A stretch of 36,116 nt of DNA from Alphaproteobacteria bacterium. GTDB taxonomy: Bacteria > Pseudomonadota > Alphaproteobacteria > Puniceispirillales > Puniceispirillaceae. Of this stretch, positions 1 to 180 are shown in pieces; the stretch's first letter is position 1, and each line of letters starts with the position of its first letter. A program made the position numbers and the translations under genes. Under the pieces are notes generated by a model. That model did no database searches, was not told the origin of the DNA, and saw nothing but the letters and a program-made list of their open reading frames with translations. The DNA lies in NCBI GenBank assembly GCA_022425485.1, contig JAKMFL010000056.1:1-36116 (forward strand). The letters run 5' to 3'.

Positions 1-61
1 ATATGTATAAATCCTATAAATTACTGATAATATTATAAATACTTGTAATTTTTTGAATTAA

Positions 62-115
62 AGCACCACGTTGACATCGTGGGGGTCACTGGTTCAATCC
101 CAGTACGCTCCACCA
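62..115 (+). tRNA. 3' fragment of tRNA-Val(GAC), probable attachment-site remnant
   Basis: The anticodon stem (66-70 with 78-82) closes a seven-base loop carrying GAC at 73-75. A five-base variable loop follows, then a perfect T arm (88-104), the 3' acceptor strand (105-111), discriminator A and an encoded CCA. The 5' acceptor strand and D arm are missing: the sequence before about 62 is AT-rich and cannot pair with the acceptor strand. A 3' tRNA half abutting foreign-looking DNA is what site-specific integration into a tRNA gene leaves at one end. The break lies in the D arm, not the anticodon loop, so a group I intron does not explain it. The fragment identity is seen; the integration history is inferred. 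Confidence 0.82.
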
Positions 116-130
116 TCTGAAAGCAAAGAA

Positions 131-160
131 AACAGCGCCTTTCGGCGCTGTTGTGCTTTT
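131..160 (+). terminator. Rho-independent terminator after the tRNA-Val fragment
   Basis: A perfect nine-base-pair GC-rich stem (131-139 with 144-152) with a TTTC loop is followed by a T-rich run. It lies 15 bases after the encoded CCA, so it is probably the native terminator of the tRNA gene. On the other strand it could also stop transcription of the minus-strand gene that ends at 181. Confidence 0.8.
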
Positions 161-180
161 TGGGGTGTTTTCAAAAAAGT

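Follow-up and report, generated by a model that had tools for sequence, protein, structure and literature searches.

A half tRNA-Val(GAC) gene at the edge of a Puniceispirillaceae contig as the very probable footprint of an integrated mobile element

That a tRNA gene may be split and then restored by the element integrating into it is textbook knowledge. According to the Islander description, integration splits the tRNA gene and the island restores it, so that the ends of the island are marked by the gene thus regenerated and by the displaced fragment, and the criteria for an island include an integrase gene inside it and a length of 2–200 kb (PMC4383910). The window analysed here, which is the whole of contig C4 (36,116 bases) in the draft genome of an alphaproteobacterium that may be SAR116-like (G000; 1,988,073 bases in 90 contigs, rated 99.86% complete), begins with part of a tRNA-Val(GAC) gene, and the locus to which it belongs is like the islands described by Islander in having an intact tRNA gene at one end and a displaced 3′ fragment at the other, both in the same orientation, with a repeat that spans the anticodon arm and is compatible with the anticodon-centred attachment class described there (PMC4383910). 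Unlike those islands (PMC4383910), this one shows neither integrase nor interior in the draft, and for that reason the island cannot be delimited. It is also like the tyrosine recombinase elements of two other genomes of the order, G135 and G036, which have tRNA-Val(GAC) as their target and, directly after the tRNA, about 46 bases in common with G000; unlike them, it has an EamA-like gene, and not an integrase, after the shared arm. We class the locus among the tRNA-borne genomic islands already catalogued by Islander, as a new but ordinary instance of low surprise. Our literature search on SAR116 islands and tycheposons had no title on a tRNA-Val site among its listings, by which we do not claim that there is none.

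The half gene, its chromosomal flank, and the intact copy

The bases at positions 62–115 of the window read, just as the original prediction had them, as an anticodon arm (GAC), variable loop, T arm, and 3′ acceptor strand with encoded CCA. The repeat that had been placed at the same positions is present, but it really runs from 62 to 117 (+ strand): it is an attR-type direct repeat whose 56 bases are identical to the 3′ end region of the intact gene (maximal exact repeat), comprising the last 54 tRNA nucleotides plus two bases after them. It begins at tRNA nucleotide 22, in the D arm, and thus extends a little beyond the anticodon-to-3′ half. ARAGORN calls no tRNA at 62–117, and the Rfam tRNA model gives the half only 20.4 bits by cmscan, under the gathering score of 29. 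With a 46-base pattern of the tRNA 3′ part, two copies were found in the genome, and none with the reversed control.

The 5′ part of the gene is replaced by AT-rich DNA, as had been claimed, and bases 1–61, the right arm and putative element end, have a G+C content of 13.1%, the window from 1701 on having 47.7%. On the other side, positions 118–180 (+ strand) are original chromosomal flank that aligns with the sequence after tRNA-Val in the sister species G001, and they contain the terminator that had been read after the half, a displaced terminator-like hairpin with a short T run at about 131–161, seen by eye. Beyond the junction, the first chromosomal gene (181–1605, − strand) encodes 474 amino acids, and G001 has the same gene in the same place with 98% protein identity. 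Neither Pfam nor PADLOC has a family that it matches; 5/61 genomes, counting G000 and G001, have relatives at E ≤ 1e-10, and among plasmid records there are 11 matches at 24–25% identity, of which 10 bear the annotation “TerD family protein”. DNA identity to G001 in 250-base bins is 96.8–100% from base 62 to about 1500, the bins rightward being at 70–90%. This gene looks recently exchanged, and it is perhaps the cargo of an earlier event at tRNA-Val.

The intact tRNA-Val(GAC) gene with the identical 56 bases lies on another contig of the same assembly, C71, 591 bases from the contig end. To the left of it are der and an N-formylglutamate-amidohydrolase-like gene (named from reading translations), and to the right, within the 591 visible bases, there is a partial EamA-like transporter gene. 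The repeat of the half-tRNA bases that had been anticipated is therefore this exact copy within the intact gene, and the predicted intact tRNA-Val(GAC) does exist, although the integrase foreseen beside it was not found there in G000. Neither the 591-base tail of C71 nor bases 1–61 of the window (E ≤ 0.001) have a second match in the assembly, and the interior of the element consequently appears to be missing from it. What is visible of the element amounts to 591 bases on the C71 side and 61 on the C4 side.

The unoccupied site in sister species

An unoccupied site in relatives, a test that we added beyond the Islander filters, was found in two sister species, one in a single contig (G002) and the other in two overlapping contigs (G001). 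The G002 contig carries, in this order, der, the amidohydrolase gene, intact tRNA-Val, two other genes, and then the FMN-reductase, SDR, GFA, and following genes of the window; the 474-aa first gene of the window is not at this site, the two other genes being in its place. The FMN-reductase gene, which may be ArsH, is too widespread to be informative, with 80 loci in the contig scan. In G001, the end of contig C8 and the start of contig C40 are the same 139 identical bases around the tRNA, and across this overlap the order is the left flank of C71 (80% identity in an alignment of 364 positions that includes the tRNA), the intact tRNA, and the right flank of the window (98% over 900 positions). 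The alignments of both unoccupied sites begin at base 62 of the window.

These two genomes provide the comparison with element-free relatives that had been proposed, and they join the C71 left flank, an intact tRNA-Val, and the window right flank, in agreement with the claim that the element lies to the left of the window and off it. It follows that the element is very probably located between C71 and the window. An intact tRNA gene with its cognate 3′ fragment downstream, in the same assembly and in the same orientation, is thereby found, the order and orientation being deduced from G001 and G002, with C71 and C4 as separate contigs. Among the 21 loci read, we saw no relative having the half-tRNA with the same flanks on both sides and the element absent, the arrangement that had been named as contradicting the prediction.

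The tRNA-Val(GAC) gene is intact in 18 of these 21 loci, the exceptions being the window, G027, and C40 of G001, where it is incomplete merely through the contig start; an intact gene does not mean an empty site, given that G036 has an intact tRNA and is occupied. The 46-base pattern, with up to three mismatches, was matched in 14/61 genomes of the relatives search and 19/61 of the family search, two sets that overlap and each include G000, and it misses diverged genes such as that of G066, which has tRNA-Val(GAC) and no pattern match. The half gene of G027 begins at tRNA nucleotide 22, as in the window, and has on its element side a terminase-small-subunit-like gene (phrog_2538, E 5.5e-9); no intact copy was found in G027 with the 46-base pattern (≤3 mismatches) in the relatives and family searches. 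Homology between the right arms of the window and G027 was considered and rejected: BLAST aligned bases 8–116 of the window, but the similarity outside the tRNA is at shuffle level, and the score of the 61-base right arm against that of G027 is reached by 383 of 2000 shuffles, that is, no better than chance.

The arm shared among elements and the integrases

The sequence that follows the tRNA in C71 differs from the native flank of both G001 and G002. In an ungapped comparison of its first 46 bases, G036 has 42 matches and 12 other sequences have 12–20, and in gapped alignment G036 scores 78 vs. a highest shuffle of 25. Six of the 12 others (G007, G001, G002, G016, G030, and the window) also score 31–45 against highest shuffles of 24–28 in gapped alignment, a result that these native-type sequences owe to a comparable terminator-like hairpin often found after tRNA-Val. 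Judged by these alignments, the C71 sequence after the tRNA resembles an element arm more than a native flank, part of it being a terminator-like hairpin that native flanks also have. In addition, from the tRNA start C71 agrees with G073 in 130 of 131 bases (55 of the 56 after the tRNA) and then diverges. Searched with up to three mismatches, a 38-base arm occurs in four of the 136 genomes of the order, namely, G000, G073, G036, and G135, and G000 thus has the left arm shared by the elements with the G036/G135 integrase.

What stands next to this arm differs among the four genomes: a tyrosine integrase follows in G036 and G135, the EamA-like transporter gene in C71, where the integrase of that element family would be adjacent to the arm, and a HAD-type hydrolase gene as first cargo in G073 (locus L144, contig C302, 1472–2295). 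It is conceivable, though we consider it unlikely, that elements with wholly different adjacent cargo have in common a conserved attachment arm, made of the tRNA-Val 3′ part and its own terminator, some of these elements possibly being non-autonomous islands moved by the integrase of a relative. The EamA-like fragment of C71 is 82% identical to the proteins of G014 and G022, 74% to that of G036, and 71% to that of G032; these four genomes belong to genus g8. Among the matches listed, the best from another genome of its own genus is at 37% (G005); G027, also of genus g8, has no close EamA relative among the matches listed. These identities suggest that the fragment may have been transferred from outside the genus.

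No integrase of G000 could be assigned to a tRNA-Val element, and the visible 591 + 61 element bases hold none. The genome has five PF00589 matches, all on contigs other than C71 and C4, three of them near tRNA-Leu(CAG), tRNA-Leu(GAG), or tRNA-Pro(GGG), and it has no match to PF13356, to the G036 integrase at E ≤ 1e-20, or to the G135 integrase at E ≤ 1e-50. The integrase genes of G000 on contigs C18, C48, and C6 (loci L029, L027, and L028) are accompanied in their stretches by tRNA-Pro(GGG), tRNA-Leu(CAG), and tRNA-Leu(GAG), respectively, and G000 therefore probably holds other tRNA-borne elements.

At E ≤ 1e-50, 6/136 genomes of the order have a relative of the G135 integrase, and in all six cases the locus, extended by no more than 1,500 bases to each side of the match, contains one tRNA gene: tRNA-Val(GAC) in G135, G036, and G066, and tRNA-Pro(GGG) in G013, G067, and G075. 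The G135 integrase has the domains Arm-DNA-bind_3, Phage_int_M, and Phage_integrase, the first two of which are visible in the G036 protein, truncated by a contig end. The integrases of L155 (G135, contig C75) and L041 (G036, contig C79), both at tRNA-Val(GAC), are 94% identical, their genomes belonging to two families of the order, and this likeness apparently reflects a recent cross-family transfer. Of the records in a phage collection, 162 match the G135 integrase, each with its best place under 60% identity and those listed at 22–28%, and on this comparison it appears to have no close phage relative in the collection. Viral contigs searched with 48 bases of the tRNA half gave no exact match, and three stretches in them fitted the peptide pattern of the G036 integrase, none of which was confirmed.

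Probable origin of the half gene and apparent repeated use of the site

The reading that we favour, at a probability of roughly 93%, is that a mobile element integrated site-specifically into tRNA-Val(GAC) and that C71 and the start of the window are its two ends. Integration would have taken place between the N-formylglutamate-amidohydrolase-like gene and the first genes of the window, by an element whose attP presumably bore the 3′ part of the tRNA gene; with such an attP, the intact tRNA would be rebuilt at the left end (C71) and the original 3′ part displaced to the right end (window 62–117). What we observe directly are the two ends, the direct repeat of 56 bases, and the empty site of G001 and G002. 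We infer that a single continuous element stretches from C71 to C4 and that a tyrosine recombinase was the agent, the size and cargo of the element being likewise a matter of deduction.

Both junctions are near contig ends, with 61 bases before the repeat in C4 and 591 after the tRNA in C71, and neither of these ends matches the assembly a second time, as would also suit a mixture of strains, in which some cells have different DNA beside tRNA-Val and others do not, or chimeric contig ends, with the half gene partly a product of assembly. We hold this to be quite improbable, given that the junction falls at tRNA nucleotide 22, where a 3′ tRNA repeat is expected and where the half gene of G027 also begins, and that the tail of C71 bears the arm common to G036, G073, and G135; moreover, a strain mixture would still imply the element in some cells. 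Even less credible is the duplication of a tRNA 3′ fragment through ordinary recombination or transposition and not by a site-specific element. It would fit the lack of a visible integrase at the tRNA-Val site in G000, but the order and orientation are those of an integration, with the 3′ fragment on the downstream side, the chromosome is continuous in the sister genomes, foreign-looking DNA comes right after the rebuilt tRNA, and integrases stand at tRNA-Val(GAC) in three other genomes. Most likely, the half tRNA is the ordinary footprint of a mobile element that rebuilt a working copy of the gene at its other end.

The case also illustrates how a break in the assembly at such a tRNA can conceal an island, here one absent from a genome with a completeness rating of 99.86%. 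With integrases beside it in three genomes, a prophage-like half in G027, and the present case in G000, tRNA-Val(GAC) seems to be an insertion site used repeatedly in the order.
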